From: Haloterrigena alkaliphila
Lineage (GTDB): Archaea > Halobacteriota > Halobacteria > Halobacteriales > Natrialbaceae
Length of the DNA: 64,000 nt
Reading direction: 5' to 3'
NCBI RefSeq assembly: GCF_017352155.2
Contig: NZ_CP071462.1
Coordinates: 496,001 to 560,000 of the forward strand
A program made the translations under genes and the position numbers. The notes under the pieces were generated by a model. It saw only the letters and a program-made list of their open reading frames with translations. It was not told where the DNA came from and did not search any database. Numbering within the stretch: position 1 is the first letter of the stretch; every line of letters begins with the position of its first letter. Positions 9,162 through 56,004 of this stretch are shown here, one piece after another.

Positions 9162-10229
9162 TCAGAACTCGGTACAGACCGGAATGCCCATCGTGTCGTA
9201 CTCGCCGAGTCGGTCCATCACGTCGGGAACGTCCTCGAGCGAGCAGGTCTCCGTGACGATCTTCCCGGGATCGATCTTCCCGCCGTCCATCATCTTGAAG
9301 ATCTCGTCGTACTCGTGGGGCGGCATGCCGTAGGAGCCGTAGAACTCGCGCTCCTCGGTGACCATCGTGTCGACCGGGATCGAGACTTCGCCGCCCTCCT
9401 CGGACGTCGTCATCCCGATCTGGAGGTGCTGGCCGCCCGGGGCGAGCGAGTCGACCGAGTTGCGGACCGTCTCCGCGATGCCGAGCGCGTCGACCGAGAC
9501 GTCGACGCCGCGGCTCATCTCGGTGAAGCCCTTGACGGCCTGGGACACGTCCTGGACGCTCTCGGGATCGACGGTCTCGACGGCGCCCAGTTCGCGAGCC
9601 AGTTCGAGTTTGTCGGGGATCACGTCGACGGCGATCACGTTCGCGCCGAGGGCGCTGGCGACGTGGACCGCGGAGAGCCCGACGCCGCCGCAGCCGTGGA
9701 CCGCGACCCAGTCGCCGGCCGTGACGTCGACGCGGTGGACGATCCCGTGGAACGCGGTCGCGAACCGACAACCCAGTCCGGCGACTTCGGCCGGATCGAC
9801 CGACTCGGGGACGGTCACGAGGTTCTGCTCGGCGTTCCGGACGGGGTACTCCTCCGCGAACGCGCCCTGCTGGAACGGGACGAACCCCATCGGGACCGAC
9901 TTCTCGCAGATGTTGGCCCGCCCCGCCCGGCAGTACGGACAGGTGCCGTCGCTCAGGTTGAACGGGTTCGTCACGAGGTCGCCCTCGCTGAAGCGCTCGA
10001 CGCCGCTCCCGACCTCGACGACGCGGCCGACGGGTTCGTGGCCGAAGACCAGCCCCTCCGTGGGCATCAGGCCGATCCAGTCCCAGTCGCCCTGCCAGGC
10101 GTGCCAGTCGCTGCGACAGATGCCACAGGCTTCCGTCTCGACGACGACGCCGTGCTCCTGACAGTCGGGTCGGTCTACTTCCTGTACCTCGAGCGGTTCC
10201 TCCGCGCCCTGAAAGACGACGGCTTTCAT
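9162..10229 (-). CDS. Zinc-dependent alcohol dehydrogenase
   Basis: The product (355 aa) is a medium-chain dehydrogenase. It shows the catalytic zinc site with C35 (ACGICRSDWH) and GHE at 63-65, a structural-zinc loop that keeps only three cysteines (97, 100, 108), and a nucleotide fold with GCGGVG followed by an Asp-ended strand (IAVDV), which favours NAD over NADP. It should interconvert an alcohol and aldehyde or ketone. The ATG at 10229 is chosen because a CTTTATT box lies about 24 nt upstream, giving a leaderless message. The aldehyde dehydrogenase gene lies directly upstream on the same strand. Confidence 0.88.
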   Translation of the reverse strand: MKAVVFQGAEEPLEVQEVDRPDCQEHGVVVETEACGICRSDWHAWQGDWDWIGLMPTEGLVFGHEPVGRVVEVGSGVERFSEGDLVTNPFNLSDGTCPYCRAGRANICEKSVPMGFVPFQQGAFAEEYPVRNAEQNLVTVPESVDPAEVAGLGCRFATAFHGIVHRVDVTAGDWVAVHGCGGVGLSAVHVASALGANVIAVDVIPDKLELARELGAVETVDPESVQDVSQAVKGFTEMSRGVDVSVDALGIAETVRNSVDSLAPGGQHLQIGMTTSEEGGEVSIPVDTMVTEEREFYGSYGMPPHEYDEIFKMMDGGKIDPGKIVTETCSLEDVPDVMDRLGEYDTMGIPVCTEF

Positions 10230-10345
10230 AGCCGCTCGCACGACGGGTTCCCCAATAAAGTTAATGATTAATAGTTGTATTTGTGCCGAGAGCAGCCGCT
10301 ATCGGCCGAACGAGCCCTCGCTGACGTGTTGCTCGACCGAACAGG

Positions 10346-11908
10346 TCACCCCATCTTCGGGACGCCGCCGAGGTTGACTTTGACCGTCTTCACCTGCGAA
10401 TAATCCTCGAGCGCCTCCTCCGCGAGTTCCCGGCCCGTGCCGCTCTCCTTGTAGCCGCCGTGGGGGGCCGGATCGAACAGGTCGTTGTAGGTGTTGATCC
10501 AGACCGTCCCGGCCTCGAGGTCGGTCGCGAACTCGTGGGCCGCGCGGAGGTCCTCGGTCCAGACGCCCGCCGCGAGTCCGTAGCTCGTGTCGTTGGCTCG
10601 CCGGAGGACCTCCTCGCGGTCGCTCCATTCGAAGACCGAGAGCACGGGACCGAACACCTCCTCGCAGCCGACGGTCGCCTCGTCGTCCACGTCGGTCAGC
10701 ACCGTCGGCCGCACGAACGGCGCCCCCGCGAGGTCGTCGTCGACCGCTGCGGTCGCGTCGTCGCCGCCGATGAACGGGGTGGCGCCCTCCGCGACGGCGG
10801 TCTCGACGTAGTCGCGGACCGACTCCGCGTGGGCGTGGTCGATCATCGGCCCAACGTCCGTCGTCGGCCCGAGCGGATCGCCGACGGTGAGCCCCTCGAC
10901 CGCGGTCCGCAGGCGCTCGAGGAACTCGTCCCGGATATCCTCGTGGAGGTACAGCCGGGAGCCGGCGGTGCACTGCTGGCCGGAGTTGAAGAAGATGCTC
11001 ACGAGCGTTCCCTCGATCGCCAGCTCGAGGTCGGCGTCGGGGAAGACGATGTTCGGGCTCTTGCCGCCCAGTTCGAGCGAGGTTGGCGTGATCGTCTGGG
11101 CCGCGCTCTCGAGGGTGGCGACGCCCGCCCCGCGCGACCCGGTCAGGCTCAGTTTGTCGACGTCGTCGTGGGCGGTCATCGCCGCGCCCACGTCCTCGCC
11201 GAAGCCCGTGACGACGTTGACCGTCCCCGGCGGGAGGACCCGATCGCAGATCCGCGCGACCTCGAGCGACGAGAGCGCGGCCCGCTCGGACGGCTTGAGG
11301 ACGACGGTGTTCCCGGTCGCCAGCGCCGGGCCGAGCTTCCACGCGACGAACATCGCGGGGAAGTTCCACGCGGAGATGGCCCCGACGACGCCGTAGGGCT
11401 CGCGGCGCGTGAAGACGCGTTTCTCGTCGCCGGTCGGCACGACCCGGCCCTCGTCGGTCGACCGCGCGAGCGCCGCGAAGTGGCGGAACTGCTCGATCAA
11501 CACCTCGCAGTCGACGAACAGCGCGTGGAGGTTGGGTTTCCCCGCCTCGAGGCTGTCGACCTTCGCGATCTCGGTCTTCCGGTCCTCGAGCCGGTCGGCA
11601 ATCTCCTCGAGCCGTTCGGCGCGCTGTCGGGGCGAGAGCTGGCCCCAGCTTCCCTCGAAGGCCTCCCGGGCAGCCTCGACGGCCCGGTCGACGTCGGCGG
11701 GAGAACCGATCTGAACCGTCGCGAGCGGTTCGCCCGTGGTGGCGTCGATCGCCTGCCCCTCCTCGCCGTCGGCGGCGTCGACCCACTCGCCGCCGATCAG
11801 GTGGCCGTAGCGGTCCCGCGAGAGGGCCGTGGTCGCGGCCGACCGGTGGCGCTCGAGGACGCCGTCGCCGACCTCGTACCGGTCCCGGTCGTAGTACTCC
11901 GCCTGCAT
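10346..11908 (-). CDS. Aldehyde dehydrogenase
   Basis: This 520-residue NAD(P)-dependent aldehyde dehydrogenase has the substrate-binding and catalytic motifs of the superfamily: AWNFPAMFVAWK at the cofactor entry, TGSRGAG, the general-base Glu in LELGGKSPN and the nucleophile Cys in NSGQQCTAGSRL. It oxidises aldehydes to acids, probably those made by the alcohol dehydrogenase encoded 116 bp downstream. The N-terminal 35 residues before HLIGGEW are longer than usual. A 31-bp dyad (12054-12084) lies upstream and may control the pair. Confidence 0.93.
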   Translation of the reverse strand: MQAEYYDRDRYEVGDGVLERHRSAATTALSRDRYGHLIGGEWVDAADGEEGQAIDATTGEPLATVQIGSPADVDRAVEAAREAFEGSWGQLSPRQRAERLEEIADRLEDRKTEIAKVDSLEAGKPNLHALFVDCEVLIEQFRHFAALARSTDEGRVVPTGDEKRVFTRREPYGVVGAISAWNFPAMFVAWKLGPALATGNTVVLKPSERAALSSLEVARICDRVLPPGTVNVVTGFGEDVGAAMTAHDDVDKLSLTGSRGAGVATLESAAQTITPTSLELGGKSPNIVFPDADLELAIEGTLVSIFFNSGQQCTAGSRLYLHEDIRDEFLERLRTAVEGLTVGDPLGPTTDVGPMIDHAHAESVRDYVETAVAEGATPFIGGDDATAAVDDDLAGAPFVRPTVLTDVDDEATVGCEEVFGPVLSVFEWSDREEVLRRANDTSYGLAAGVWTEDLRAAHEFATDLEAGTVWINTYNDLFDPAPHGGYKESGTGRELAEEALEDYSQVKTVKVNLGGVPKMG

Positions 11909-12053
11909 GGGATCACCGTCCCTCCGTCGCGGATCGGCTCCGTTCGGCGATCGGATCGGGTCTGCGCGTGTACACGACCGGTACGCCGCCAGCGGCGGTG
12001 GTCGGCCCGCCGAAGTCGTCGGCGCGTCTCGATCTGCCCGAAGACTGTGTGGA

Positions 12054-12819: not shown

Positions 12820-13128
12820 TCACAGGGCGTCGAGGCCGAGGAGATCGTTCTGAACGCGTTCGCCGACGCGGATCTCGCTGTCCGCACGCGGATACGAACA
12901 GCACAGTAGCACGTAGCCGTCGTCCTCCTGGGCCGGCGAGAGCGCCGTCCCCTCGTGCCCGTCGAGGTCGCCCTCGAGCAACTCGCCGGCACAGGAGGTA
13001 CACATCCCGTTCCGACAGGAGTGGGGGAGCTCGAGGCCGGCGCGTTCTGCCGCGTCGAGGACGTACTCGTCCGGGCCGACCTCGACCGTCTCCGTCCCGT
13101 CCTCGAAGTGGAACGTGATCTCGTACAT
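12820..13128 (-). CDS. [2Fe-2S] ferredoxin
   Basis: This 102-residue plant-type ferredoxin has the cluster ligands C38, C43, C46 and C76 in the spacing Cx4Cx2C...C. Unlike the abundant haloarchaeal ferredoxin it lacks the long acidic insertion, so it looks dedicated. It is the last gene of a three-gene operon, starting 7 bp after the stop of the 105-aa gene, and most likely delivers electrons to the R2lox-like di-iron oxidase encoded at the operon's head. That partnership is inferred from the operon. Confidence 0.9.
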   Translation of the reverse strand: MYEITFHFEDGTETVEVGPDEYVLDAAERAGLELPHSCRNGMCTSCAGELLEGDLDGHEGTALSPAQEDDGYVLLCCSYPRADSEIRVGERVQNDLLGLDAL

Positions 13129-13454: not shown

Positions 13455-14513
13455 TTATCGGCCCCCGTCTGCGGCGACGGCGCCGCCGCGTTTGCGCTGG
13501 TAGATCTCCTGGTACTCCCGCACCTCCTCGTCGATGTCCTTCTCGAGACACTCCTGGTGGCGGTCGGCGACGATGCCGACGACCTTGCGGTGGTCGATGT
13601 CCAGATCCAGCGCCTCGTTGAACTGGCCGTCGATGAGGTTGCCGACCCGCATCAGGAGGTCGTCGAAGTCGATCTCGAGGGGGTCGCCGACGGCGTCGGT
13701 GAACATGTAGCCGAAGTCGGCGACCGATCCGACGTTCTCGTAGAGCACGTTCTCGATGCCCTGACTGACGCCCTGGAACTCCGGTTCGCCGGCGCGCTCC
13801 TTCTCGATCAGTTCGCTCAGGACCTCGACGCCGTGGGTGATGTGGCGCCCCTCGTCGGTGCTGATGAACTTGAAGCCGTGGTTCAACAGCGGCAGCGGGG
13901 CGTTCTGCGAGAGCTTGTTGATCGAGTAGAAGCCGCCGCGGGCGAGCAGCCCCTCGACGATCATGTGATACACCGTCAGCGCCTCGGCGATGTCGACGGG
14001 GTCCTGGGAGTGGGCCGCCCTGGCCGTGAGCTGTCCCTGCCGGTCGAAGATTTCGCCGAGTCCGGTCGCCTGCACGATGGGGATCCGGGCGCCGCCCCGT
14101 TTCGGGTTCAGATCGGCGAACACGTCCTGTTCGCCCATCACCTCGTGCATGTAGACGTCGAGGAACTGGGTGTGTTTGTGCTCGGTCAGCGTAAACATCG
14201 TCATGTACATCTCCATCTCCTCGTTGTCGTCGAAACACGGCGCGCCCATGATCCGCTGGAGGTGGTGACTGGCGTCCTCGCCGACCGCGAACTCGCCGTC
14301 GAGGAAGCCCGAGACGAGGTACCGAATCTGCTTCTGTTCGACCGGGTCGAGCGAGTTCCAGATCTCGCGGTCCTCCTCGAAGCCGACCTCCTCGAACAGC
14401 TTCTCGACGTTCCACGTGCCGAGTTCGACCCCCTTCTGGAAGAGGTCGTACCACTTGCTCTGCGTATCGATCCGTTCCGCCTGAAATCCGGGTGTCTTGG
14501 TAACCTGTGACAC
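13455..14513 (-). CDS. R2lox-like di-iron ligand-binding oxidase
   Basis: This 352-residue ferritin-like protein is often labelled ribonucleotide reductase beta subunit, but its motifs fit R2-like ligand-binding oxidases. Metal ligands are E74, E111/H114 (TEHKH), E187 (IVEG) and E221/H224 (DEGRH). Val77 in GEFAVGED and Tyr182 in VYHMIVEG occupy the positions of the Val and Tyr that form the ether crosslink in Mycobacterium R2lox (V71, Y162). R2lox binds a long-chain fatty-acid-like ligand and activates oxygen. No ribonucleotide reductase alpha gene is nearby; instead a 105-aa protein and a [2Fe-2S] ferredoxin follow in the operon. Confidence 0.85.
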   Translation of the reverse strand: MSQVTKTPGFQAERIDTQSKWYDLFQKGVELGTWNVEKLFEEVGFEEDREIWNSLDPVEQKQIRYLVSGFLDGEFAVGEDASHHLQRIMGAPCFDDNEEMEMYMTMFTLTEHKHTQFLDVYMHEVMGEQDVFADLNPKRGGARIPIVQATGLGEIFDRQGQLTARAAHSQDPVDIAEALTVYHMIVEGLLARGGFYSINKLSQNAPLPLLNHGFKFISTDEGRHITHGVEVLSELIEKERAGEPEFQGVSQGIENVLYENVGSVADFGYMFTDAVGDPLEIDFDDLLMRVGNLIDGQFNEALDLDIDHRKVVGIVADRHQECLEKDIDEEVREYQEIYQRKRGGAVAADGGR

Positions 14514-23577: not shown

Positions 23578-23825
23578 TCGTTCACGGTACCGTCTCTCAC
23601 TCGCTAAAGCGTACTCACTGGGATACGCGGGGCTTGAAGGCTGGCGCCGGCAGTCCGCGGCGCGGTCGTCGAGTCGTTCCCGTCCGCACACGGGGAACGC
23701 TCACACACGGGGCCGTTTTCCGGCGTCTTCGCCGGCCTCGGACGCGATCGCGAGCCGACCGGTGCTATAAACGGCCTGCCATCCGCCGAGCAATTGCCTT
23801 CGTCGTCGCCGCTATCCCTCGAGAC

Positions 23826-24602
23826 ATGGACTTCGGATTGGACGACAAGACCGCGCTCGTCACCGGGGCGGGCGGCCGCATCGGGAGCGTCGACTGCGAG
23901 GTACTCGCCGAAGAAGGTGCCGAGGTGATCGCGCTGGACGTCGACGTCTCCGCGGCCGAAACGATCGCCGAGGACGTCGAGAACGCGGGCGGCCGTGCCC
24001 ACGCGGTCGAGTGCGACCTGACCGACCGAGAAGCCGTCGCGGAGACGGTCTCGGCCGTCGAGGAGGAGACCGACGGCATCGACATCCTGATCAACAACGC
24101 CGGACTGGTCGACGCCCGCGACAGGGTCGAGGAGTTCGACGACGAGATCTGGGACCGCGACGTCTCGGTCAACCTGACGGGCACCTACAACGTCACCCGC
24201 GCGGTCTACCCCGGGATGAAGGACCGCGAGTGGGGCCGGATCATCAACATGTCGTCGATGGCCGGCTGGTACGGCGGGTTCGGGCAGGCGTCTTACAGCG
24301 CGACGAAATCCGCCCTGATCGGCTTCGGCAAGACCCTCGCCCTCGAGGGCGCCCAGCACGGCATCACGAGCAACGTCGTCGCGCCGAGCATCGTCGTCGG
24401 CGCGCTCGCGGACATGGATATCGAACAGTTGGAACAGGTCGACGAACACTTCGCCCGGATCGCCAAGGCCACGCCGATGCGACGGCTCGGCCGCGAGGAG
24501 GACGTCGCGAACCTGATCGCGTACTTCTGTTCCGAACGGGCCGACTACATCACGGGACAGGTCGTCGGCGTCACCGGCGGCGTCGATCTCTTCAGCTTCT
24601 GA
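23826..24602 (+). CDS. SDR family oxidoreductase (paralog 1)
   Basis: This 258-residue Rossmann-fold dehydrogenase has TGAGGRIG (13-20), an Asp after the second strand (LDVD, favouring NAD), NNAG (90-93) and the catalytic Ser143/144, Tyr157 and Lys161. A 3-hydroxyacyl-CoA or similar alcohol is a reasonable substrate given the divergent acyl-CoA ligase. It is closely similar to the SDR at 53816-54601, including the identical C terminus TGGVDLFSF. A TATA box (GCTATAAAC) at about 23764-23772 lies 54 nt before the ATG. Confidence 0.9.
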   Translation: MDFGLDDKTALVTGAGGRIGSVDCEVLAEEGAEVIALDVDVSAAETIAEDVENAGGRAHAVECDLTDREAVAETVSAVEEETDGIDILINNAGLVDARDRVEEFDDEIWDRDVSVNLTGTYNVTRAVYPGMKDREWGRIINMSSMAGWYGGFGQASYSATKSALIGFGKTLALEGAQHGITSNVVAPSIVVGALADMDIEQLEQVDEHFARIAKATPMRRLGREEDVANLIAYFCSERADYITGQVVGVTGGVDLFSF

Positions 24603-45950: not shown

Positions 45951-46466
45951 ATGCAACTCGAACAGCCGACCCAGGTCGAGCAGTCGACGCAGGAGTCGGG
46001 CTGGAGCGGGACGGTCCCCAGCGCCGTCGACGCGCGGGTCCTCGGACTCGTCGTCGTGGTGGGCGGACTGGCGGCGTCGTTGAACATCCCCTACGGCGGG
46101 CTCCCGATGGCCCTCGCGGCGTTCGGCCTGCTCGTCGGCGGCGGCGTCGTCGCCCACGTGCTCGGCGAACGGAAACTGCGCCGGATCACCGACGGACTCG
46201 TCGAGCGATGGGTCGACGACGGCGCCCACATCGAAGACGTCACCCGGTCGTCCGACTGGATGCAGACCGAGTGGACGGTCCACACGCCCGACGGCGAGAT
46301 CCGAATCGGCGGCCTCGCGCTGGTCCCGATCAGCCGCTTCTCGGTCGAGTGGCAGGGGATGGGCGACGCGATGAACGCCAGCGAGGCCGAGGAGAACCTC
46401 GACGCCCTCGCGAAGGGACTCTACGCGGAGTTCTTCGACATCGGTTCCGCGACCCAGCGCTCGTAA
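45951..46466 (+). CDS. Membrane protein, two TM helices with a C-terminal domain
   Basis: The 171-residue protein has a Gln-rich N terminus (EQPTQVEQSTQ), two hydrophobic helices (VLGLVVVVGGLAASL and LPMALAAFGLLVGGGVV) and a soluble C-terminal domain with DWMQTEWTVHTPDGEIRIGGLALV. It is not a family I recognise, but composition is haloarchaeal. The soluble part resembles a cytoplasmic beta domain. Confidence 0.75.
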   Translation: MQLEQPTQVEQSTQESGWSGTVPSAVDARVLGLVVVVGGLAASLNIPYGGLPMALAAFGLLVGGGVVAHVLGERKLRRITDGLVERWVDDGAHIEDVTRSSDWMQTEWTVHTPDGEIRIGGLALVPISRFSVEWQGMGDAMNASEAEENLDALAKGLYAEFFDIGSATQRS

Positions 46467-46653
46467 CGCCGGTTCACCACGCGCTGTCGCAGTAGCTCTA
46501 TTCTTCGGCAGGTCGCGAACCGTTCTCGAGGCTGATTACTCATTGACTCCGTTCGAGACGGTGTTGCGTCCGATCTCAGTAGCTCCCGGCGAGCACGGGC
46601 GCAACGTGTCAGACATCGAAATTTATTTGTTCCGAAGTATGGTAGCACATAAC

Positions 46654-46917
46654 ATGGCAATCGGGCGTTACCGCGACGAACCGGCCGAGATGGACGACGA
46701 CGAGCGCGAAGTCGCCGCGGCCCAGTACCCCGAGGGCGGTCTCGTGATCGGTATCGGCGTCGGTATCGTCCTGGCGCTGGTACTCGCCGACGCGTTGCTG
46801 GTACTGACCCCCGTCCTCGGCGGCGTGGTCGGATTCGTTGTCGGTCGTCGAATTCGCCGCTACAAACTCCGACAGCGGCGAACCGAGCGCACCATCGACG
46901 ATGAGCGACGACACTGA
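46654..46917 (+). CDS. Small membrane protein upstream of an APC permease
   Basis: The 87-residue protein has a charged N terminus (AEMDDDEREVAAAQYPEGG) and two hydrophobic segments (LVIGIGVGIVLALVLADALLVL and LGGVVGFVVG) ending in a basic tail RRIRRYKLRQRR. A TTTATTT box at about 46621-46628 lies 26-33 nt before this ATG, indicating a leaderless start here rather than the upstream in-frame ATGs. It overlaps the permease gene by 17 bp, so translation is probably coupled. Confidence 0.7.
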   Translation: MAIGRYRDEPAEMDDDEREVAAAQYPEGGLVIGIGVGIVLALVLADALLVLTPVLGGVVGFVVGRRIRRYKLRQRRTERTIDDERRH

Positions 46918-48286
46918 GGGCGATTCGACGACGCTCTCCTCGAGCGTCGGGGTGGTGGGGGTACTCGCGTTGCTGGTCGGGAACGCGATCGCCGTCCCGA
47001 TCTTCGTCCTGCCCGGGCCGCTGGCCGCGACAGCGGGACCCTCACTCGTGCTGGCGGCCGTGCTAGCGGCGATTCCCGCGGGCTTCGTCGTCCTGTACAA
47101 CGCGCTGCTCGGCTCCGCGATGCCCGTCGCCGGCGGCCTGTACGTCTACATCTCGCGGCTGACGGCGCCCTTCTGGGGGTTTCTCGTCCCGTGGACGATC
47201 CCGCTGGTCGCGTGGGCGTCGCTGCTCATCACGGCGACCGGCTTCGCCGAGTACGTGCGGATCTTCGTCGACGCCCCGTCGCCGTTGTTCGTCTACGGCC
47301 TGCTCGCGTTCGTCCTCGTCGTCAACCTGATCGGACTCAGGACGGTCGCGCGGGTCCAGCTCGTCTTCGTCGCCGGCCTCGTCGCCTCGCTGCTCGTCTT
47401 CGTCGTTCCGGGCCTCGGCGCGGTCGAGCCCGCGAACTATGCCCCGTTCCTCCCGGACTACGGCGGGTTCGCGCTCGCGGTGGTCGCGCTGTTCTACCCG
47501 TTTCTCGGCTTCGGCCTGCTGGTCGAACTCGGCGAGGAGATCGACGATCCCGGGCGAACCATTCCGCTCGTGCTAGGCGTCGGCATCGGCATCGTCGCGC
47601 TGTTCTACGTGGCGCTGATCGCCGTCCTCGTCGGCGTCGTCCCCTACGCGGAACTCGGCAGCGAGGCCGACCTCGCGATCGCCGCCGGGGCGTTTCTCCC
47701 GTGGTGGGGCGAGTACGTCGTCGCCGCCGGCGCCCTCTTCGCCGTCGTGACGACGGTGAACACGACGTTGCTCGTCTTCTCGCGGACGCTCATGCGCGCG
47801 AGTCGCGACGGGATCTTCCCGGGACAGTTCGCCCGGATCCACCCGCGCTTCGAGACGCCCCACTACGCCGTGCTGGCTCTCGGGCTCCCGCCGTTCGCGC
47901 TCGTTCCCCTCGCGGACGAAATCGTCGGGCTCGCCGCGTTCATCGGCCTCGCCAGTCTCACCGCGTACTTCTTCTGTGCGGTCGGTCTCTGGAACCTCCC
48001 GCGGGAGTTCCCCGACCACTACGCGAACGCCCCGTTCCGGCTCCGGCGGTATCGCGGGCTCCTCCTCGCGGTCGTCGGCGGCGCCGTCGTGACCGGCGCG
48101 TTCTGGATCGTCACGTTGCTCCAGCGTCCCACGGTCGGCGTCGTGCTCATCGGCTGGTTCGTCGTCGCGTACGGCTACTACCGCTATCGGCTCGCGAGCG
48201 TCGACCGGATCGCGGTCTATCGAACGATGACGAGCCTCGACGCCCACGAGCGCGTCGGGGACGCGGACGAGCGTCCGGACGACTGA
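46901..48286 (+). CDS. APC-family amino acid permease
   Basis: The 461-residue protein has the twelve-helix APC layout, starting with GVLALLVGNAIAVPIFVLPGP (first helix with the unwound GN/A motif) and including ALFYPFLGFGLLVELGEEIDDPGRTIP, the characteristic helix 6 with conserved E and IP. It should exchange or import amino acids or amines. It overlaps the upstream small membrane gene. The substrate cannot be told. Confidence 0.88.
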   Translation: MSDDTEGDSTTLSSSVGVVGVLALLVGNAIAVPIFVLPGPLAATAGPSLVLAAVLAAIPAGFVVLYNALLGSAMPVAGGLYVYISRLTAPFWGFLVPWTIPLVAWASLLITATGFAEYVRIFVDAPSPLFVYGLLAFVLVVNLIGLRTVARVQLVFVAGLVASLLVFVVPGLGAVEPANYAPFLPDYGGFALAVVALFYPFLGFGLLVELGEEIDDPGRTIPLVLGVGIGIVALFYVALIAVLVGVVPYAELGSEADLAIAAGAFLPWWGEYVVAAGALFAVVTTVNTTLLVFSRTLMRASRDGIFPGQFARIHPRFETPHYAVLALGLPPFALVPLADEIVGLAAFIGLASLTAYFFCAVGLWNLPREFPDHYANAPFRLRRYRGLLLAVVGGAVVTGAFWIVTLLQRPTVGVVLIGWFVVAYGYYRYRLASVDRIAVYRTMTSLDAHERVGDADERPDD

Positions 48287-48379
48287 CTCGCTCGAGCCCG
48301 TCGGTCGACGCCCCCAGCCTCCCGTCCCGTCTGGTATCACCGACATCACATTTAATAGCCGGAGCGAGTAGTATGTTGT

Positions 48380-49318
48380 ATGTCAACGGAATACACTCCT
48401 ACCGAGATGATGGATCGGGAGTCCCGATCGAACCGCTACTACCGGAACGCGGTCGAGCGCCACTGGGATCCCGGAGAGATCGACCTCGAGCGGGACGTCG
48501 GGAACTTGCTCGAGTACATCGAAGGAGCCGACGAGTACGATCAGGGGTACTGGTACCGGACGCTCAACGGGATCGCGAAGTTCGGCGCCGGCGAGGACGC
48601 GGTCACCGAGGACCTCGCGCCGCTCGGCACGGTCCTCGACGATATCGACGACCAGTTGTTCCTGACGACCCAACTGTACGAGGAGGCCAAACACGCGGAC
48701 TTCTTCGATCGCTACTGGCGCGAGGTCGTCTGGACGGTCGAGGACGAGCTGGGCTGGGAGCGATCGAACCCGCGCCACGAGCGGTGGTTCAACGAGCCGT
48801 ACATCGAGCTGTTCGACCGCAACCGAAAGGCGCAGTTCCGACTCCTCGAGGAAGACACCCCCGAGAATCGGGCGAAGGCGTACTGTCACTACCACCTCAC
48901 CGTCGAGGGGATCCTCGCCCAGACGGGCTACTACGGGATGCAGACCTCCTACGGCGGCGAGTTCGACGAGTTGCCGCACCTGCCGGGGCTCGTCGAGGGC
49001 TTCACGAAGATCCGCAGCGACGAGGGTCGACACGTCGGCTTCGGGATGAACCAGCTCAAGAAGCTCATTCGGGAGGAGGGCGTCGATCCGACGCTCGTCG
49101 AGGAGACGGTCAACGAGCTTCTCCCGCTCGTGCAGGGCATCACGGAGGACGATCGGTTCCAGTCCGACACCGAGGAGGGAGAGCGCATCGGCCTGCAGGA
49201 AGGCGAGCTGGCCGAGTACGCGGTCGAAAAGCACACCGATCGGATGCACCAGATCACCGACGCCGCGGCCGACATCCCCGACGTCGACGAACTGGTGCGC
49301 CTCGAGGGCGACGACTGA
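48380..49318 (+). CDS. R2lox-like di-iron ligand-binding oxidase (second copy)
   Basis: The 312-residue ferritin-like protein shows the R2lox pattern. Metal ligands are E72, E102/H105 (EEAKH), E176 (TVEG) and E215/H218 (DEGRH). Val75 in GEDAVTED and Tyr171 in HYHLTVEG match the Val-Tyr ether-crosslink pair of Mycobacterium R2lox. Automatic calls as ribonucleotide reductase beta are probably wrong. A TATA-like TTTAATA lies 29 nt before the ATG. The next genes on the same strand are an acyl-CoA ligase, an acyl-CoA dehydrogenase and an amidase, which suits oxidation of a lipid-type ligand. Confidence 0.87.
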   Translation: MSTEYTPTEMMDRESRSNRYYRNAVERHWDPGEIDLERDVGNLLEYIEGADEYDQGYWYRTLNGIAKFGAGEDAVTEDLAPLGTVLDDIDDQLFLTTQLYEEAKHADFFDRYWREVVWTVEDELGWERSNPRHERWFNEPYIELFDRNRKAQFRLLEEDTPENRAKAYCHYHLTVEGILAQTGYYGMQTSYGGEFDELPHLPGLVEGFTKIRSDEGRHVGFGMNQLKKLIREEGVDPTLVEETVNELLPLVQGITEDDRFQSDTEEGERIGLQEGELAEYAVEKHTDRMHQITDAAADIPDVDELVRLEGDD

Positions 49319-49478
49319 CGAGCGAGCGGCGCCTCGAGGTCGCCGTCACACCGGAAGACGCGCCTCGAGCCGCAGGGTCACGCCGTCGCGGTTGCCACGG
49401 AATCGCGCCGTCGCCGTTCTCACGGAATCGCGGGCGACCAAACACCTAATACTCCGGCCGTTGACAGTCCCCGCGACC

Positions 49479-51122
49479 ATGATGGGTGCACAGTTAACAC
49501 TTGACAAGATACTCGAACGGGCAGTCGACCTATTCCCCGACCGGGAACTGGTGACGAAACTGCCCGACGGAGAGATGCACCGATACACCTACGGGGACGC
49601 CTACGAGCGCATCTGCCAGCTCGCGGGCGCGCTCGACGAACTGGGACTCGAGGAGGGGGCCCGAGTCGGCGTCGTCGCGACGAACCACTACCGCCACTTC
49701 GAACTGTACTTCGGGCCAGCCTGCTCGGGGAGGTCGATCCACATGTGTAATATGCGGCTGCCCGACCACCACTTCGTCCACACCATCGAGGACGCCGGGG
49801 ACGAGGTGCTGTTCGTCGACCCGTGGCTACTCGAGAAAGTCGAGGCGAACGCCGACGAACTCGAGACCGTCGAACGGTACGTCGTCCTCTGCGGCGAGGA
49901 CGAACTGCCGGAGACCGACCTCGAGCCGGTGACCGACTACGAATCGCTGCTCGAGGGACACTCGACCGAGTACGGCTGGCCCGACGTCGACGAGGATGCG
50001 GAGTACGGGATGTGCCACACCTCGGGGACGACCGGGCTCCCGAAGGGCGTCGCCTACTCCCACCGGGCGATGTACCTCCACAGCATCATGTGCGGCCACG
50101 TCGACGCCAACGGGGTCAGCGAGCGCGACACCGTGTTGCCCGTCGTCCCGATGTTCCACGCCAACGGCTGGGGGCTCCCCTACGCGGCGACGTTCGTCGG
50201 CGCGAAGCAGGTCTTCCCGACCGTCCACACCGATCCGGAGCCCCTCGCTCGCCTGATCGACGAGGAGGAGGTAACGTTCTCGGCGGCCGTGCCGACGATC
50301 TGGCTCGGGATGGCCGAGTTCTTGGACGAGAACCCCGAGGTCGACATCTCGAACATCGACCGGCTGACGGTCGGGGGGTCCGCGCCGCCGGAGTCGCTCA
50401 TCCGGAAGTACGACGAGGAGTACGACGCGCCGATCATCCAGGGCTGGGGCATGACCGAGACCTCGCCGCTAGGCACGCTCAGCACGCTCCGAAAGGAGGC
50501 CGCCGAACTACCCAGCGACGAGCAGTACGAGTACCGCGCCAAGGCCGGCCTCCCCGTCCCGGGGATGCAGACCCGCATCGTGGACGACGACGGCGAGGAG
50601 GTACCCGCCGACGGCGAGACGATGGGCGAGTTGCAGGTCCGCAGCCCCTGGGTCACGGACGGCTACCACGACCGACCCGAGGAGAACGAGGCGGCGTTCA
50701 CCGAGGACGGCTACCTGCGGACCGGCGACATCGCCACCCGCGACGAACTCGGCTACGTCGACGTCGTCGACCGGAACAAGGACGTGATCAAGTCCGGCGG
50801 CGAGTGGATCTCGTCGGTGCAACTCGAGAACGAACTGATGGCCCACGAGGCCGTCGCCGAGGCGACGGTCGTCGCGGTCGAGCACGAGCGCTGGCAGGAG
50901 CGCCCGATGGCGGTTATCACCACCTCGGCGGGCGCCGACGTGACCGGAACCGAACTCGAGGACCACCTCGCCGAGACGTTCCCCGATTGGTGGCTCCCAG
51001 ACGTCTACGAGTTCGTCGACGAGATCCCGAAGACCTCGACCGGGAAGTTCGACAAGAAACGGCTGCGCGAGCGGTTCGATATCGTGCTCGAGGCAGAGCA
51101 GGGGGAGGAGGCCGAACCTTAA
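49479..51122 (+). CDS. Long-chain acyl-CoA ligase (AMP-dependent)
   Basis: The 547-residue ANL enzyme has TSGTTGLPKG (181-190), QGWGMTETSP, the linker GDIATRDELGYVDVVDRNKDVIKSGGEWIS (in part) and STGKFDKKRLRE with the catalytic Lys. Motifs fit medium- to long-chain fatty acid ligases. ATGs at 49479 and 49482 are adjacent. It heads a run of acyl-CoA genes and follows the R2lox-like gene by 160 bp; the dehydrogenase starts 24 bp after its stop. Confidence 0.93.
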   Translation: MMGAQLTLDKILERAVDLFPDRELVTKLPDGEMHRYTYGDAYERICQLAGALDELGLEEGARVGVVATNHYRHFELYFGPACSGRSIHMCNMRLPDHHFVHTIEDAGDEVLFVDPWLLEKVEANADELETVERYVVLCGEDELPETDLEPVTDYESLLEGHSTEYGWPDVDEDAEYGMCHTSGTTGLPKGVAYSHRAMYLHSIMCGHVDANGVSERDTVLPVVPMFHANGWGLPYAATFVGAKQVFPTVHTDPEPLARLIDEEEVTFSAAVPTIWLGMAEFLDENPEVDISNIDRLTVGGSAPPESLIRKYDEEYDAPIIQGWGMTETSPLGTLSTLRKEAAELPSDEQYEYRAKAGLPVPGMQTRIVDDDGEEVPADGETMGELQVRSPWVTDGYHDRPEENEAAFTEDGYLRTGDIATRDELGYVDVVDRNKDVIKSGGEWISSVQLENELMAHEAVAEATVVAVEHERWQERPMAVITTSAGADVTGTELEDHLAETFPDWWLPDVYEFVDEIPKTSTGKFDKKRLRERFDIVLEAEQGEEAEP

Positions 51123-51146
51123 GCCGCTCCGCACGGTCGTTCGCGT

Positions 51147-52367
51147 ATGCCAACTGATACCACAGCTGGCGTGAGTTTCGCCGTCGACGAGGAGACCGGA
51201 CTGATCCTCGACAGCCTCGAGGAGTTCCTCGAGCGGGAGGTCGATCCGATCGTCGAGGAGCTGGGCGACGCGTACACCAATCCGCGGAAGGGGCACCGCG
51301 AGGACGGCCGCTGGAGCGACGACCTGCTCGAGGCCCGCGAGGAGATTCGGCGCCGCGCCGCTGAGGCGGGATTCTACGCGATGAACCTGCCCGAATCGGT
51401 CGGCGGCGAGGACGTCTCCGCGGTGACGTGGTACCGGGCGAAGAAGCGGCTGGCGTCCCACGGCCCCGGACTGGCGCGCTACGCCCTCGCCGGTCCCGAG
51501 GGCCCGAAACCGCTTCTCCTGCAGGCCGAGGGGGAGCAGGTCGAACGGTACCTCGAGCCGACGGTCCGCGCCGAGAAGTCGACCGCGTTCGCCCAGACCG
51601 AGCCCGGCTACGGCTCCGATTCGCCGAATATGGAGACCACGGCCGAAAAAGACGGGGGCGAGTGGGTCCTCAACGGTCGCAAGCAGTGGATCACCAACGC
51701 TCCCTACGCCGACTTCGTGCAGGTGTTCGCTCGGACTACTCCACAGGAGGAGGCGGGTCGCTACGGCGGTATCACCTGCTTCATCGTCGAACGCGACGAG
51801 TACGAACTCGGGTCGTACAACAACGCCGTCGGCGCCGAGGGGTCGCAGGCCGAGATCGTGCTGGACGACGTGCGGATCCCCGATGACCGCGTCCTCGGCG
51901 CGGTCGACGAGGCGTTCTACGCCGCGATGGAGTTCCTCTCGCTCGGCCGGCTCGAGCTGGGTGCAGAAGCGGTCGGCTACTCGGAGTACCTGCTCGAGCG
52001 AGCGACCGAGTACGTCACCGAGCGCGAGGCCTTCGGCCGGTCGATCGGGGACTTCCAGCAGGTCTCGGCGAAGCTCGCCCGCGGGAAGGCCAAGACCTAC
52101 GCGGCCGACGCGGCGGGACTGAAACTCGCCTGGAAGATGGAGCGAGACGAGCGGACGGTGATGGATTCGTCGATCCTGAAGTGGTTCGCGACGAACGTCA
52201 TGTGGGAACTCGCCGACGACGTCGTGCAGGTCAACGGCGCGAACGGCCTCGCCGAGGAGAACCCGTACGTGGACCTCCTCCATCAGGCCCGGATCCTCCG
52301 GATCGTCGAGGGGACCGACGAGATCCAGCTGAACACGATCGCGAAGTCGATGGGGGTCACGGACTGA
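51147..52367 (+). CDS. Acyl-CoA dehydrogenase
   Basis: This 406-residue flavoenzyme has AQTEPGYGSDSPN, RKQWITNAPYADF, REAFGRSIGDFQQ and the catalytic Glu388 in IVEGTDEIQ. Unlike the enzyme at 18595-19800 it keeps the standard base. It introduces the first double bond in beta-oxidation, passing electrons to ETF. It starts 24 bp after the acyl-CoA ligase and is followed within 6 bp by an amidase, so the three likely form one transcript. Confidence 0.94.
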   Translation: MPTDTTAGVSFAVDEETGLILDSLEEFLEREVDPIVEELGDAYTNPRKGHREDGRWSDDLLEAREEIRRRAAEAGFYAMNLPESVGGEDVSAVTWYRAKKRLASHGPGLARYALAGPEGPKPLLLQAEGEQVERYLEPTVRAEKSTAFAQTEPGYGSDSPNMETTAEKDGGEWVLNGRKQWITNAPYADFVQVFARTTPQEEAGRYGGITCFIVERDEYELGSYNNAVGAEGSQAEIVLDDVRIPDDRVLGAVDEAFYAAMEFLSLGRLELGAEAVGYSEYLLERATEYVTEREAFGRSIGDFQQVSAKLARGKAKTYAADAAGLKLAWKMERDERTVMDSSILKWFATNVMWELADDVVQVNGANGLAEENPYVDLLHQARILRIVEGTDEIQLNTIAKSMGVTD

Positions 52368-52373
52368 TCCGCT

Positions 52374-53810
52374 ATGGTCCCAGTACCCACACGGATGACC
52401 GCTGCGGGGCTCGCGAGGGCGATCCGGGACGGCGAGTACTCGCCCACCGAGGTCGTCGACGCCACGCTCGAGCGCATCCGCGAGCGCGCCGACAGGACGA
52501 ACGCGTTCGTCACCGTCACGGACGAGTTGGCCCGAGAAATGGCCGAAGAGGCCGAACGGGCGATCGACGAGGGCGAACCGCTCGGGCCGCTGCACGGCGT
52601 CCCCGTTGCAATCAAGGATCTCGACGACGTCGAGGGCGTCCGGACGACGTCGGGTTCGCTGCTCTTCGAGGATCGCATCGCCGACGCGGACTCGCCGTTC
52701 GTCGCTCGACTGAAGGCGGCGGGCGCCGTCGTCGTCGGAAAGACGAACACGCCCGAGTTCGGCCTCGGGGTAACGACCGACAACCGCGTCGCCGGCCGAA
52801 CCGGCACGCCGTTCGATCCCGACCGCGTGTCGGGGGGCTCCTCGGGCGGCGCCGGCGCGGCGCTGGGCGACCGACTCGTCCCGCTCGCGCCGGGGTCGGA
52901 CGCGGGCGGCTCCGTCCGGATTCCGGCGAGCTTCTGCGGCGTCTACGGCCTGAAACCCACGCAGGGCGTGCTCCCGAACGTCAGCCGGCCGAACGCGTTC
53001 GCGAACCACACGCCGTTTTCCACCGTCGGGCCGATGGCCCGCACGGTCGAGGATGCAGCCCTCTCGCTGGACGCGATGGCGGGCGCCCACCCGCGCGACC
53101 CCTTCTCGGTCCCGAAACGAGAGTCGTACCGCGACGCCGTCGACCGTCCCGTCGACGACCTGAAGATCGCCTACAGCCCGGACATGGGAATCTACCCCGT
53201 CGATCCCGACGTGCGCGAGGTCCTCGAGGAGGCCATCCCGGCGTTCGAACGCGCCGGCGCGACCGTCGACGCGGTCGACCCCGATCTCGGACACGACAAC
53301 GAGGAAAGTCTGGACGCCTACTACACGATGGCCACCGTCCGGTGGCAGTCGCTGCTCGATGCTCTGGAGCGGGAAGGGTTCGATCCGCGGGGCGACGACC
53401 GCGGCCACCTGCGGCCGTATCTCGTCGACCTTATCGTGGACGCGGAGGAGCCGACGACGCGGGAGTACGAGCGCGCGGACGTCGTCCGGACGCGCGTGCT
53501 CGACGGGTTCGCGGATCTCTTCGCGGAGTACGACCTGCTCGTGACGGCGACGGTCGGCACGACGCCGTTCCCCCACGGGGAGGAGCCCGAGGCCATCGAC
53601 GGCGTCGATATCGAACCGCTCCGCGGCTGGGCGCTCACGCAGCCGTACAACCTCACGGGCCAGCCGGCGGCCTCGATTCCGGCCGGCTTCGTCGACGGGC
53701 TCCCCGTCGGAATGCAAATCGCGGGCGAACGACACGCCGACGCCGACGTCATCGCCGCCAGCGCCGCCCTCGAGCGCCGGCGGCCGTGGCGCGATGCGTA
53801 TCCCGACTAA
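52374..53810 (+). CDS. Amidase-signature-family amidase
   Basis: The 478-residue protein has the complete Ser-cisSer-Lys triad: Lys81 (VAIKDLD), Ser156 (SGGSSGGAG) and Ser180 (SDAGGSVRIP). Members hydrolyse amides, including GatA-type and fatty-acid-amide enzymes. Being in an acyl-CoA ligase/dehydrogenase operon, it may release a carboxylic acid from an amide for activation. There is no GatB or GatC gene nearby, which argues against the tRNA amidotransferase. Confidence 0.92.
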   Translation: MVPVPTRMTAAGLARAIRDGEYSPTEVVDATLERIRERADRTNAFVTVTDELAREMAEEAERAIDEGEPLGPLHGVPVAIKDLDDVEGVRTTSGSLLFEDRIADADSPFVARLKAAGAVVVGKTNTPEFGLGVTTDNRVAGRTGTPFDPDRVSGGSSGGAGAALGDRLVPLAPGSDAGGSVRIPASFCGVYGLKPTQGVLPNVSRPNAFANHTPFSTVGPMARTVEDAALSLDAMAGAHPRDPFSVPKRESYRDAVDRPVDDLKIAYSPDMGIYPVDPDVREVLEEAIPAFERAGATVDAVDPDLGHDNEESLDAYYTMATVRWQSLLDALEREGFDPRGDDRGHLRPYLVDLIVDAEEPTTREYERADVVRTRVLDGFADLFAEYDLLVTATVGTTPFPHGEEPEAIDGVDIEPLRGWALTQPYNLTGQPAASIPAGFVDGLPVGMQIAGERHADADVIAASAALERRRPWRDAYPD

Positions 53811-53815
53811 CGGGA

Positions 53816-54601
53816 TCAGAAACTGAAGAGGTCGACGCCGCCGGTGACGCCGATCACCTGCCCGGTCACGTAACCGGCCTGCTCCGAACAGAGGTAGGCG
53901 ACCATGTTGGCGACGTCCGCCTCGGTCCCGAGGTGGCGCATCGGCGTCGCCTCGGCGATTCGCGCGAAGTACTCGTCGACGTCCTCGCGCAGTTCGTCGG
54001 GATCCATGTCGGCCCAGTCGCCGACGACGATGTTCGGGGCGATGACGTTCGACGTGACCCCCGACTGAGCGCCCTCGAGCGCCATCGTCCGGCCGAGCCC
54101 GATCATCGCGGCCTTCGTCGCGGAGTAGGAGAGTTGGCCGAAGCCGCCGTACCAGCCCGCCATCGAGGACATGTTGACGACCCGTCCCCAGCCGCGGTCG
54201 CACATCCGCGGGAACACCTCCTTGCTGATGTTGTACGTCCCGGTGAGGTTGATCTCGACGTCCCGATTCCAGATATCGTCGTCGTAATCGCCGATCCGCG
54301 AGCGCGCGTCGACCATCGCGGCGTTGTTGACGAGCACGTCGACGCCGCCGAACGCGTCGCGCACCTCGGCCATCGACGCGCGGACGTCGTCGGGGTCGGT
54401 CAGGTCGCACTCGAGGGCCATCGCGTCGCCCCCGTCGGCGGTCTCGTCGATCTCTGCGGCGACCGTCTCGGCCCCGTCGGCGTCCACGTCGAGGACGACC
54501 ACGTCGGCGCCCTCCTCGGCGAGGATTCGACAGTCGGTGCTTCCGATCCGTCCGGCGCCGCCGGTGACGACGGCGGTCCGGTCCTGGAGTCCGAAATCCA
54601 T
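53816..54601 (-). CDS. SDR family oxidoreductase (paralog 2)
   Basis: The 261-residue dehydrogenase has TGGAGRIG (13-20), the NAD-type LDVDAD, NNAA (92-95), a Ser-Met-Ala catalytic segment, Tyr159 and Lys163. It is closely similar to the SDR at 23826-24602 in length and sequence, down to TGGVDLFSF. It is convergent with the amidase (5-bp gap) and lies next to the AMACR-like gene, transcribed divergently. The likely substrate is a hydroxyacyl-CoA or related alcohol. Confidence 0.9.
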   Translation of the reverse strand: MDFGLQDRTAVVTGGAGRIGSTDCRILAEEGADVVVLDVDADGAETVAAEIDETADGGDAMALECDLTDPDDVRASMAEVRDAFGGVDVLVNNAAMVDARSRIGDYDDDIWNRDVEINLTGTYNISKEVFPRMCDRGWGRVVNMSSMAGWYGGFGQLSYSATKAAMIGLGRTMALEGAQSGVTSNVIAPNIVVGDWADMDPDELREDVDEYFARIAEATPMRHLGTEADVANMVAYLCSEQAGYVTGQVIGVTGGVDLFSF

Positions 54602-54813: not shown

Positions 54814-56004
54814 ATGCGACTCGATGGCACTCGCGTGCTCGACTGTTCGCGGCTGCTGCCCGGCCCCTACGCGACGCAGTTGCTGGCCGACTGCGGCGCC
54901 GAGGTCGTGAAAGTGGAGGACACCGACGCCGGCGACTACGCGCGGGCGATGCCGCCGTACACGTCCCGCGACGTCGGCGCGATCTTCGACGCGGTGAACC
55001 GCGGCAAACGGAGCGTCTCGATCGATCTGAAGCGCGAATCCGGGCGGGAGGCCTTCTATCGACTCGTCGAGACGGCCGACGTCGTCCTCGAGGGGTTCCG
55101 ACCGGGCGTCGTCGACCGGCTGGAGATCGACTACGAGACGCTCACCGAGTACAACGAGGAACTGGTCTACTGCTCGCTCAGCGGCTACGGGCAGGACGGG
55201 CCGTGGGCGGACCGGGCCGGCCACGACCTCAACTACGTCGCGCTGGCCGGCCTGCTCGACATGACCCGCGACGCGCCCGACGAGAAGCCGCAGGTCCCCG
55301 GCTATCCGATCGGCGACATGGCCGGCGGCCTGTTCACCGCCTTCGCGATCGTTGGAGCGCTACTCTCGCGGGAACTCGGAAACACCGGCGGCGAGTACGT
55401 CGACGTCGCGATGGCCGACGTCGTGGCCTCGTTCAGTCAGTCGGTTGCCCATCAGGCCTTTACAGGCGAGCCCGACGAACCTCGACCCGGCGCGACGTCG
55501 CTGACCGGCGCGCTCCCGTGGTACGACTGCTACGAGACCGCCGACGAAAAGTGGGTGACCCTCGCGGCTCTCGAGCCGCAGTTCTGGCGGGCGTTCTGCG
55601 AGGCCGTCGACCGAGAGGACCTCGTCGACGAACACGGCACGGCGGATCCGGACGTCCGCGCCGCCCTCGAGGCGGAACTCCGCGACCTCTTCCGCGAGCG
55701 AACCCGCGAGGAGTGGGAGGCGGCCCTCGCAGGCGTCGACGCGGCGTTCGCCGGCGTCTACGCGCCGGCCGAGGCGGTCGACCACCCCCAGTTCCGCGCT
55801 CGGGAACTCCTCGAGGACCCCGAGGACGCGCCGCCGCGAATCGGATTTCCCGCCCGGTTCGGCGGCGAGTCGGCGGCCCGCGACGAGCGCGTCCCGGCCC
55901 AAGGCGAACATACCCGTCAGTACCTCCTCGAGGCGGGATACGACGACGAAGACGTCGACGCGCTGCTCGAGTCGGGCGTCGTGGCCGGTGAGTCGCACCG
56001 ATAG
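54814..56004 (+). CDS. Alpha-methylacyl-CoA racemase-like protein (CaiB/BaiF family)
   Basis: The 396-residue family III CoA-transferase-fold protein begins RVLDCSRLLPGPYATQLLADCGAEVVKVE (in part) and contains GYGQDGPWADRAGHDLNYVALAG followed by GYPIGDMAGG. His137 and Asp168 correspond to the catalytic pair of alpha-methylacyl-CoA racemase rather than only the CoA-transferase Asp. It would epimerise branched acyl-CoAs so that both isomers can enter beta-oxidation. A formyl-CoA-transferase-like role is the alternative. The partner genes around it are all acyl-CoA type. Confidence 0.88.
   Translation: MRLDGTRVLDCSRLLPGPYATQLLADCGAEVVKVEDTDAGDYARAMPPYTSRDVGAIFDAVNRGKRSVSIDLKRESGREAFYRLVETADVVLEGFRPGVVDRLEIDYETLTEYNEELVYCSLSGYGQDGPWADRAGHDLNYVALAGLLDMTRDAPDEKPQVPGYPIGDMAGGLFTAFAIVGALLSRELGNTGGEYVDVAMADVVASFSQSVAHQAFTGEPDEPRPGATSLTGALPWYDCYETADEKWVTLAALEPQFWRAFCEAVDREDLVDEHGTADPDVRAALEAELRDLFRERTREEWEAALAGVDAAFAGVYAPAEAVDHPQFRARELLEDPEDAPPRIGFPARFGGESAARDERVPAQGEHTRQYLLEAGYDDEDVDALLESGVVAGESHR

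Follow-up and report, generated by a model that had tools for sequence, protein, structure and literature searches.

R2-like ligand-binding oxidase genes and their recurrent link to β-oxidation genes in Haloterrigena alkaliphila and other haloarchaea

Introduction

The R2-like ligand-binding oxidases (R2lox) are described as carrying out two-electron chemistry at a Mn/Fe centre, with an ether cross-link in the protein and a fatty acid in a channel (PMC6060897, PMC4118035), and they purify with fatty acids (PMC10867098, PMC6060897). In 2014 their natural role was called unknown (PMC4118035). The sole R2lox activity that we found reported in the literature is alkane degradation in crude lysate: GkR2loxI of Geobacillus kaustophilus (GK2771; structure 4HR0) has been presented as an alkane monooxygenase from a β-oxidation cluster, with lysate that degrades C10-C22 alkanes (PMC10867098). 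An R2lox gene of Halorientalis hydrocarbonoclasticus is cited in PMC10867098 as being induced by hexadecane. Here, we describe R2lox-2, an R2lox gene that stands beside genes of acyl-coenzyme A (acyl-CoA) metabolism in Haloterrigena alkaliphila (family Natrialbaceae). The stretch that we analyzed, referred to as the window, comprises 64,000 nucleotides of NZ_CP071462.1 (positions 496,001-560,000, forward strand), and all coordinates are given on it unless another contig is named. R2lox-2 occupies 48380-49318 (+) and encodes 312 amino acids.

Compared with described systems, the R2lox-2 locus is most easily set beside the GK2771 cluster, with which it has β-oxidation genes, a CoA ligase, and dehydrogenases in common (PMC10867098). 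In Geobacillus, alcohol and aldehyde dehydrogenases are next door, whereas Haloterrigena has both at a separate gene, R2lox-1, about 35 kb from R2lox-2. The R2lox-2 locus also adds genes for an APC permease, an amidase, and a racemase-like protein. A second likeness is with Rhodococcus, where R2lox operons contain alcohol dehydrogenase, FAD reductase, ferredoxin, aldehyde dehydrogenase, and fatty-acid-CoA ligase genes. Plasmids pROB01 of R. opacus B4 and pRB11 of R. oxybenzonivorans resemble the window in combining R2lox with a fatty-acid-CoA ligase, and in the ferredoxin and alcohol/aldehyde dehydrogenases that we find near R2lox-1. However, the functions are gathered there in a single compact operon, which also has FAD reductase, SCP2, and MCE genes, and are not divided between two loci as in the window; identity is 27-28%. 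At the protein level, GkR2loxI and R2lox-2 agree in the six ligands, the cross-link pair, and the channel Ala/Tyr at 28-29% identity, and R2lox of Mycobacterium tuberculosis (Rv0233, 3EE4/4AC8) shares the fold (Z 31-32) and active-site positions at 23-25% identity. Chlamydia NrdB, a class Ic R2 protein of ribonucleotide reductase, is also similar in fold (Z about 25) and in its all-Glu carboxylate set of the Mn/Fe type, but it is without the ligand channel and the Val-Tyr cross-link and is only 16% identical.

Results

Sequence and modeled fold alike place R2lox-2 among the true R2-like ligand-binding oxidases and apart from the ribonucleotide-reductase subunits. Residues 20-255 align to 4HR0 (phmmer, E 1.2e-23), and in this alignment E72, E102, H105, E176, E215, and H218 correspond to E69, E102, H105, E167, E202, and H205, while V75/Y171 correspond to the cross-link pair V72/Y162. 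All eight positions are invariant among 107 haloarchaeal homologues. The same is true of A180 and Y184, the counterparts of Ala171 and Tyr175 in the 4HR0 channel, which have been used as a criterion for membership in the family (PMC4118035). Furthermore, an AlphaFold2 model built from 33 sequences (pLDDT 88) returned R2lox entries only among its first 34 Foldseek matches. When the model was compared with VIA-align, R2lox chains scored Z 29.3-32.4 and the best ribonucleotide-reductase R2 scored 26.6, such that all listed R2lox structures ranked above all R2 entries. The alignment, the homologues, and the fold ranking therefore bear out the first-pass annotation, which had credited this second copy with the full R2lox ligand set and the Val75/Tyr171 pair. 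Features expected of a class I R2 were not found in R2lox-2: it is not closer to R2 than to R2lox, and it lacks the Phe that replaces the channel Ala in class Ic. The best NCBIfam matches are five R2lox models at 134 bits, under their cut-off of 194; as each of these models covers a narrow equivalog group or subfamily, the score points to a divergent subfamily rather than to exclusion from R2lox.

Acyl-CoA genes are common neighbors of R2lox-2 within the Natrialbaceae. Orthologues occur in 49 of 125 genomes, 45 of them at 82% identity or higher and four at 68-73%. An acyl-CoA gene is found within 10 kb at 33 of 41 orthologue-type loci. If dehydrogenase, hydratase, hydroxyacyl-CoA dehydrogenase, and thiolase are counted as the core of β-oxidation, 23 of the 41 have at least one such gene within that distance. 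In Natrinema, the orthologue is inside a complete β-oxidation set, which runs hydratase, hydroxyacyl-CoA dehydrogenase, in some cases a permease, R2lox, a racemase-like gene directly downstream, ligase, dehydrogenase, amidase, short-chain dehydrogenase/reductase (SDR), thiolase, and a second dehydrogenase. The public annotation of Halostagnicola larsenii agrees with this. In addition, the presence of R2lox-2 correlates with that of the dehydrogenase (Fisher P 4e-8) and SDR (3e-14) orthologues, in hand-read counts that are uncorrected for kinship.

The link of R2lox to β-oxidation genes recurs in several separate haloarchaeal clades. A hydratase-R2lox-dehydrogenase arrangement is found in Halomarina, Halorarius, and a genus that we designate g55 (loci L083, L091, L164, L169, L214), and at L169 the three genes are co-directional with gaps of 52-63 bp. 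Elsewhere, R2lox is followed by hydratase, a β-keto-acid cleavage enzyme (BKACE), and SDR in a small-genome clade (L148/L149; L148:607-5178), and it follows hydratase, BKACE, and SDR at L180; the occurrence of these partners in two separate clades suggests a β-keto-acid route. A Natrialba locus (L135) combines the R2lox type that H. alkaliphila has on contig 2 with a permease, MaoC, hydroxyacyl-CoA dehydrogenase, thiolase, dehydrogenase, and ligase. To put numbers on the recurrence, we made a tree of haloarchaeal R2lox and grouped the sequences at 70% identity into 31 clusters, which are not fully independent. A dehydrogenase or hydratase falls within 1.7 kb in 8 of the 31, compared with 2.9-3.6% of the genome (binomial P about 1e-5), and enoyl-CoA hydratase alone in 6 of the 31 (P 1e-5), with the background taken from family positions in two genomes, a simple gene caller, and several distances tried. 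Comparison of orthologue neighborhoods had been proposed as the check on the acyl-CoA link, and the link withstood it, both at the 33 of 41 loci and in distant R2lox clades.

In the window itself, open reading frames and Pfam confirm the ligase, acyl-CoA dehydrogenase, amidase, and SDR that had been listed after R2lox-2. The acyl-CoA ligase (AMP-binding; Pfam) lies at about 49479-51122 (+), with its start set at the conserved ATGATGGGT, and among solved structures it comes closest to the Thermus long-chain fatty-acyl-CoA synthetase 1ULT (513 bits, PDB search). It is followed by an acyl-CoA dehydrogenase of 406 amino acids (51147-52367, +), with a YEGT-type catalytic Glu motif (IVEGTDEI) read from the sequence, an amidase-signature hydrolase (52374-53810, +; PF01425, E 6e-107), and a FabG-like SDR (53816-54601, -) that is convergent to the amidase. 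Gaps of 24 bp between ligase and dehydrogenase and of 6 bp between dehydrogenase and amidase make these three genes look like one operon. Upstream of R2lox-2, a TATA-like element, ATTTAATA (48350-48357, +), is placed approximately 29 nucleotides before the ATG as a probable leaderless promoter. All 23 readable upstream regions of R2lox-2 orthologues have such an element at -28 to -33, whatever gene precedes, which suggests that R2lox-2 is transcribed from its own leaderless promoter of the haloarchaeal kind. Given this promoter and the tight gaps among the following genes, the description of R2lox-2 as head of an acyl-CoA gene run holds for its position and probably not for the transcript. The description also overlooked two flanking genes, an APC-family permease upstream (46838-48286, +; PF13520) and a CoA-transferase III family protein downstream (54814-56004, +; Pfam) with an alpha-methylacyl-CoA-racemase signature. 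The conserved promoter and the loci free of R2lox led us to reject the idea that R2lox is necessarily the first gene of a single operon.

Three smaller features of the region are worth recording. The SDR has a 65% identical paralogue at 23825-24602, so that each R2lox region has one SDR copy. Upstream of the permease are two small conserved proteins without a Pfam match (45951-46466 and 46543-46917). The former marks a chromosomal scaffold conserved in several genera, and the latter travels with the permease.

The other R2lox gene in the window, R2lox-1 (13455-14513, -), encodes 352 amino acids and has all eight R2lox positions, with Phe where Geobacillus R2lox has the channel Tyr175. Beside it is a [2Fe-2S] ferredoxin (12820-13128, -; PF00111), and downstream are an aldehyde dehydrogenase (10346-11911, -; PF00171) and a zinc alcohol dehydrogenase (9162-10241, -; PF00107/PF08240). 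R2lox-1 orthologues occur in 16 of the 125 genomes and have the ferredoxin orthologue directly downstream in 16 of 16; among the other genomes of the 125, we found no ferredoxin more than 54% identical to this partner. The aldehyde dehydrogenase orthologue is present in 10 of the 16 genomes and within 4 kb in eight. The contrast that had been drawn between a ferredoxin partner for one copy and fatty-acid partners for the other is thus upheld as far as the conserved ferredoxin is concerned. It was drawn too sharply, since R2lox-1 is also near alcohol and aldehyde dehydrogenases, and an acyl-CoA dehydrogenase and an AMP-ligase lie 5-9 kb from it. The two R2lox copies first noticed are both in the window, but the genome has four and no further PF00268 member. 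The remaining copies, on contig 3 and contig 2, are 58% and about 28% identical to R2lox-2. At Natrialbaceae loci L130, L132-L134, and L136, a run of cobalamin genes (CbiA-like, tetrapyrrole methylases) encloses R2lox of the contig 2 type. In the source genome (L003/L074) and in Natrialba, this R2lox type instead adjoins an APC permease. We set aside a cobalamin role based on the P0004-type copies in such runs because that copy has other neighbors in the source genome.

Discussion

Our results are consistent with a degradative role for R2lox-2, in which a hydrophobic chain is oxidized in an O2-dependent reaction and then enters acyl-CoA activation and β-oxidation. We consider this reading moderately probable. 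From the residues and neighbors described above, we infer the metal content, cross-link, substrate, reaction, and electron donor as follows. R2lox-2 would most likely assemble a Mn/Fe (or Fe/Fe) centre with a Val75-Tyr171 ether cross-link, and a long hydrophobic chain would bind in the channel lined by A180/Y184. With O2 and two electrons from a putative donor, the enzyme may hydroxylate (or desaturate) the chain. Further oxidation would yield an acid, which the adjacent fatty-acyl-CoA ligase could activate. The acyl-CoA would then be degraded by the acyl-CoA dehydrogenase and SDR and, in Natrinema, also by the hydratase, hydroxyacyl-CoA dehydrogenase, and thiolase. R2lox-1, with its ferredoxin, alcohol dehydrogenase, and aldehyde dehydrogenase, would suit the steps that come first in a route of this type, and its neighbors match the order of steps from alkane to alcohol, aldehyde, and acid proposed for GK2771. 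The R2lox-1 and R2lox-2 loci can therefore be read as two halves of one such route. The first-pass annotation had suggested that gene neighborhoods may reveal the substrate; what they have done is to narrow the class of substrate, without revealing the substrate itself.

Several observations weigh against this degradative reading. The set of partners varies, and genera other than Natrinema and Halostagnicola retain only one or two acyl-CoA genes. Acyl-CoA neighbors are absent at L061, from the orthologues of 68-73% identity, and from most R2lox copies of the P0003 type. Conversely, in four genomes (G329, G150, G292, G297) the same scaffold has dehydrogenase, SDR, or racemase-like genes and is without R2lox. 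R2lox-2 appears to carry its own promoter, and no ferredoxin, alcohol dehydrogenase, or aldehyde dehydrogenase adjoins it. The enrichment of acyl-CoA dehydrogenase alone is weak (4 of 31 clusters, P 0.004 at 1.7 kb and 0.09 at 5 kb), and we discarded this gene as a sole diagnostic partner, the hydratase link being the stronger one. Finally, the alkane activity of GkR2loxI comes from crude lysate, and part of it persisted in the E202A/H205A mutant (PMC10867098).

It could be argued that R2lox-2 is hitch-hiking in a variable catabolic locus, where it has an unrelated role and where the association reflects a hot spot that gathers degradative genes. The separate promoter, the scaffolds that carry the block without R2lox, and the several genera with R2lox and without the block all speak in its favor. 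So does a paralogous, R2lox-free acyl-CoA block on contig 2 of the same genome (10170-23645, L125), which includes dehydrogenases, SDR, racemase-like genes, and hydratases. Yet, a hot spot does not readily account for the enrichment over 31 clusters, for tight co-directional operons in unrelated clades such as that at L169, or for bacterial operons with the same logic. On balance, we regard hitch-hiking as unlikely, though it deserves to be kept in mind.

Alternatively, the chain that R2lox-2 oxidizes may be isoprenoid or methyl-branched, a hydrocarbon or an acid such as might come from the phytanyl lipids of archaea, and the racemase-like enzyme would then handle a 2-methyl acyl-CoA. In an alignment to the alpha-methylacyl-CoA racemase MCR (1X74), the 54814-56004 protein has the His of GHDLNY and the Asp of GDMAGG as that enzyme does, whereas its two better-scoring relatives (CaiB/BaiF and formyl-CoA-transferase) carry GYD instead. 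Those R2lox-linked members for which this region was compared have the signature as well. The His/Asp pair is found both at this locus and in the gene beside R2lox in Natrinema. Moreover, the membrane chains of haloarchaea are isoprenoid. On the strength of the signature, a branched or isoprenoid substrate has to be taken seriously. Nevertheless, a signature does not establish racemase activity, a CaiB/BaiF protein is the top overall PDB sequence match of the 54814-56004 protein, and the racemase-like gene also occurs at loci free of R2lox, all of which leave a branched substrate rather improbable. The fuller proposal, in which R2lox-2 starts the breakdown of isoprenoid or methyl-branched chains such as those of phytanyl lipids and its racemase-like neighbor takes the 2-methyl acyl-CoA, is more speculative still. 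If true, it would provide a Mn/Fe entry to archaeal lipid recycling that bypasses phytanoyl-CoA hydroxylase. Our search of the open literature for methylacyl-CoA racemase in haloarchaea found no paper. We also considered a carnitine-type pathway (CaiABCD-like), given the ligase, dehydrogenase, CaiB-family, and hydratase genes, and dropped it when NCBIfam gave no support above cut-offs.

The permease and amidase raise a further option, namely that the substrate is an amine, amide, or amino-acid derivative that is imported by the APC permease, trimmed by the amidase, and oxidized by R2lox. One APC subfamily adjoins R2lox genes of three R2lox subfamilies, with relatives of the R2lox-2 permease beside R2lox on contig 2 of the same genome (80% identity), in Natrialba (77%), and in Halomarina (71%). 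There are nine APC permeases in the genome, and two of the four R2lox genes have one within 1.6 kb, for which the chance is about 3e-4. The pairing of permease and R2lox is thus a real regularity, if an unexplained one. However, most R2lox loci are without a permease, the amidase is present at 11 of 41, and neither gene recurs as a rule in the hydratase operons outside the Natrialbaceae. Given also that fatty acids fill the known R2lox pockets, a nitrogen-containing substrate seems a long shot. Least credible of all, to the point of being negligible, is that R2lox-2 is a class I ribonucleotide-reductase small subunit, as its PF00268 membership and its public label "ribonucleoside-diphosphate reductase" would have it, since the first carboxylate is Glu, the V72/Y162 pair is present, A171 is not Phe (4HR0 numbering), and R2lox structures rank first.

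For R2lox-2, this corrects the usual annotation. Beyond the first-pass annotation, our analysis adds the recurrence of the acyl-CoA link across haloarchaea and the racemase-like and permease partners, and it amends the operon and the contrast between copies. More generally, the statistically supported linkage to β-oxidation extends the argument about the R2lox substrate class to archaea that build their membranes from isoprenoid chains and not from fatty acids, and concrete R2lox loci are now available for knock-out tests.

Two further observations concern R2lox elsewhere in the haloarchaea. On plasmid pHME505 of Haloferax mediterranei (L270), an R2lox homologue annotated as hypothetical sits in a cluster resembling fatty-acid synthesis, with quinone oxidoreductase, acyl carrier protein, ketoacyl synthase, malonyltransferase, FabG, and PhaC as neighbors. 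In genus g49, which includes Halorientalis regularis, five R2lox matches each are found in G058, G086, G110, G168, and G365.

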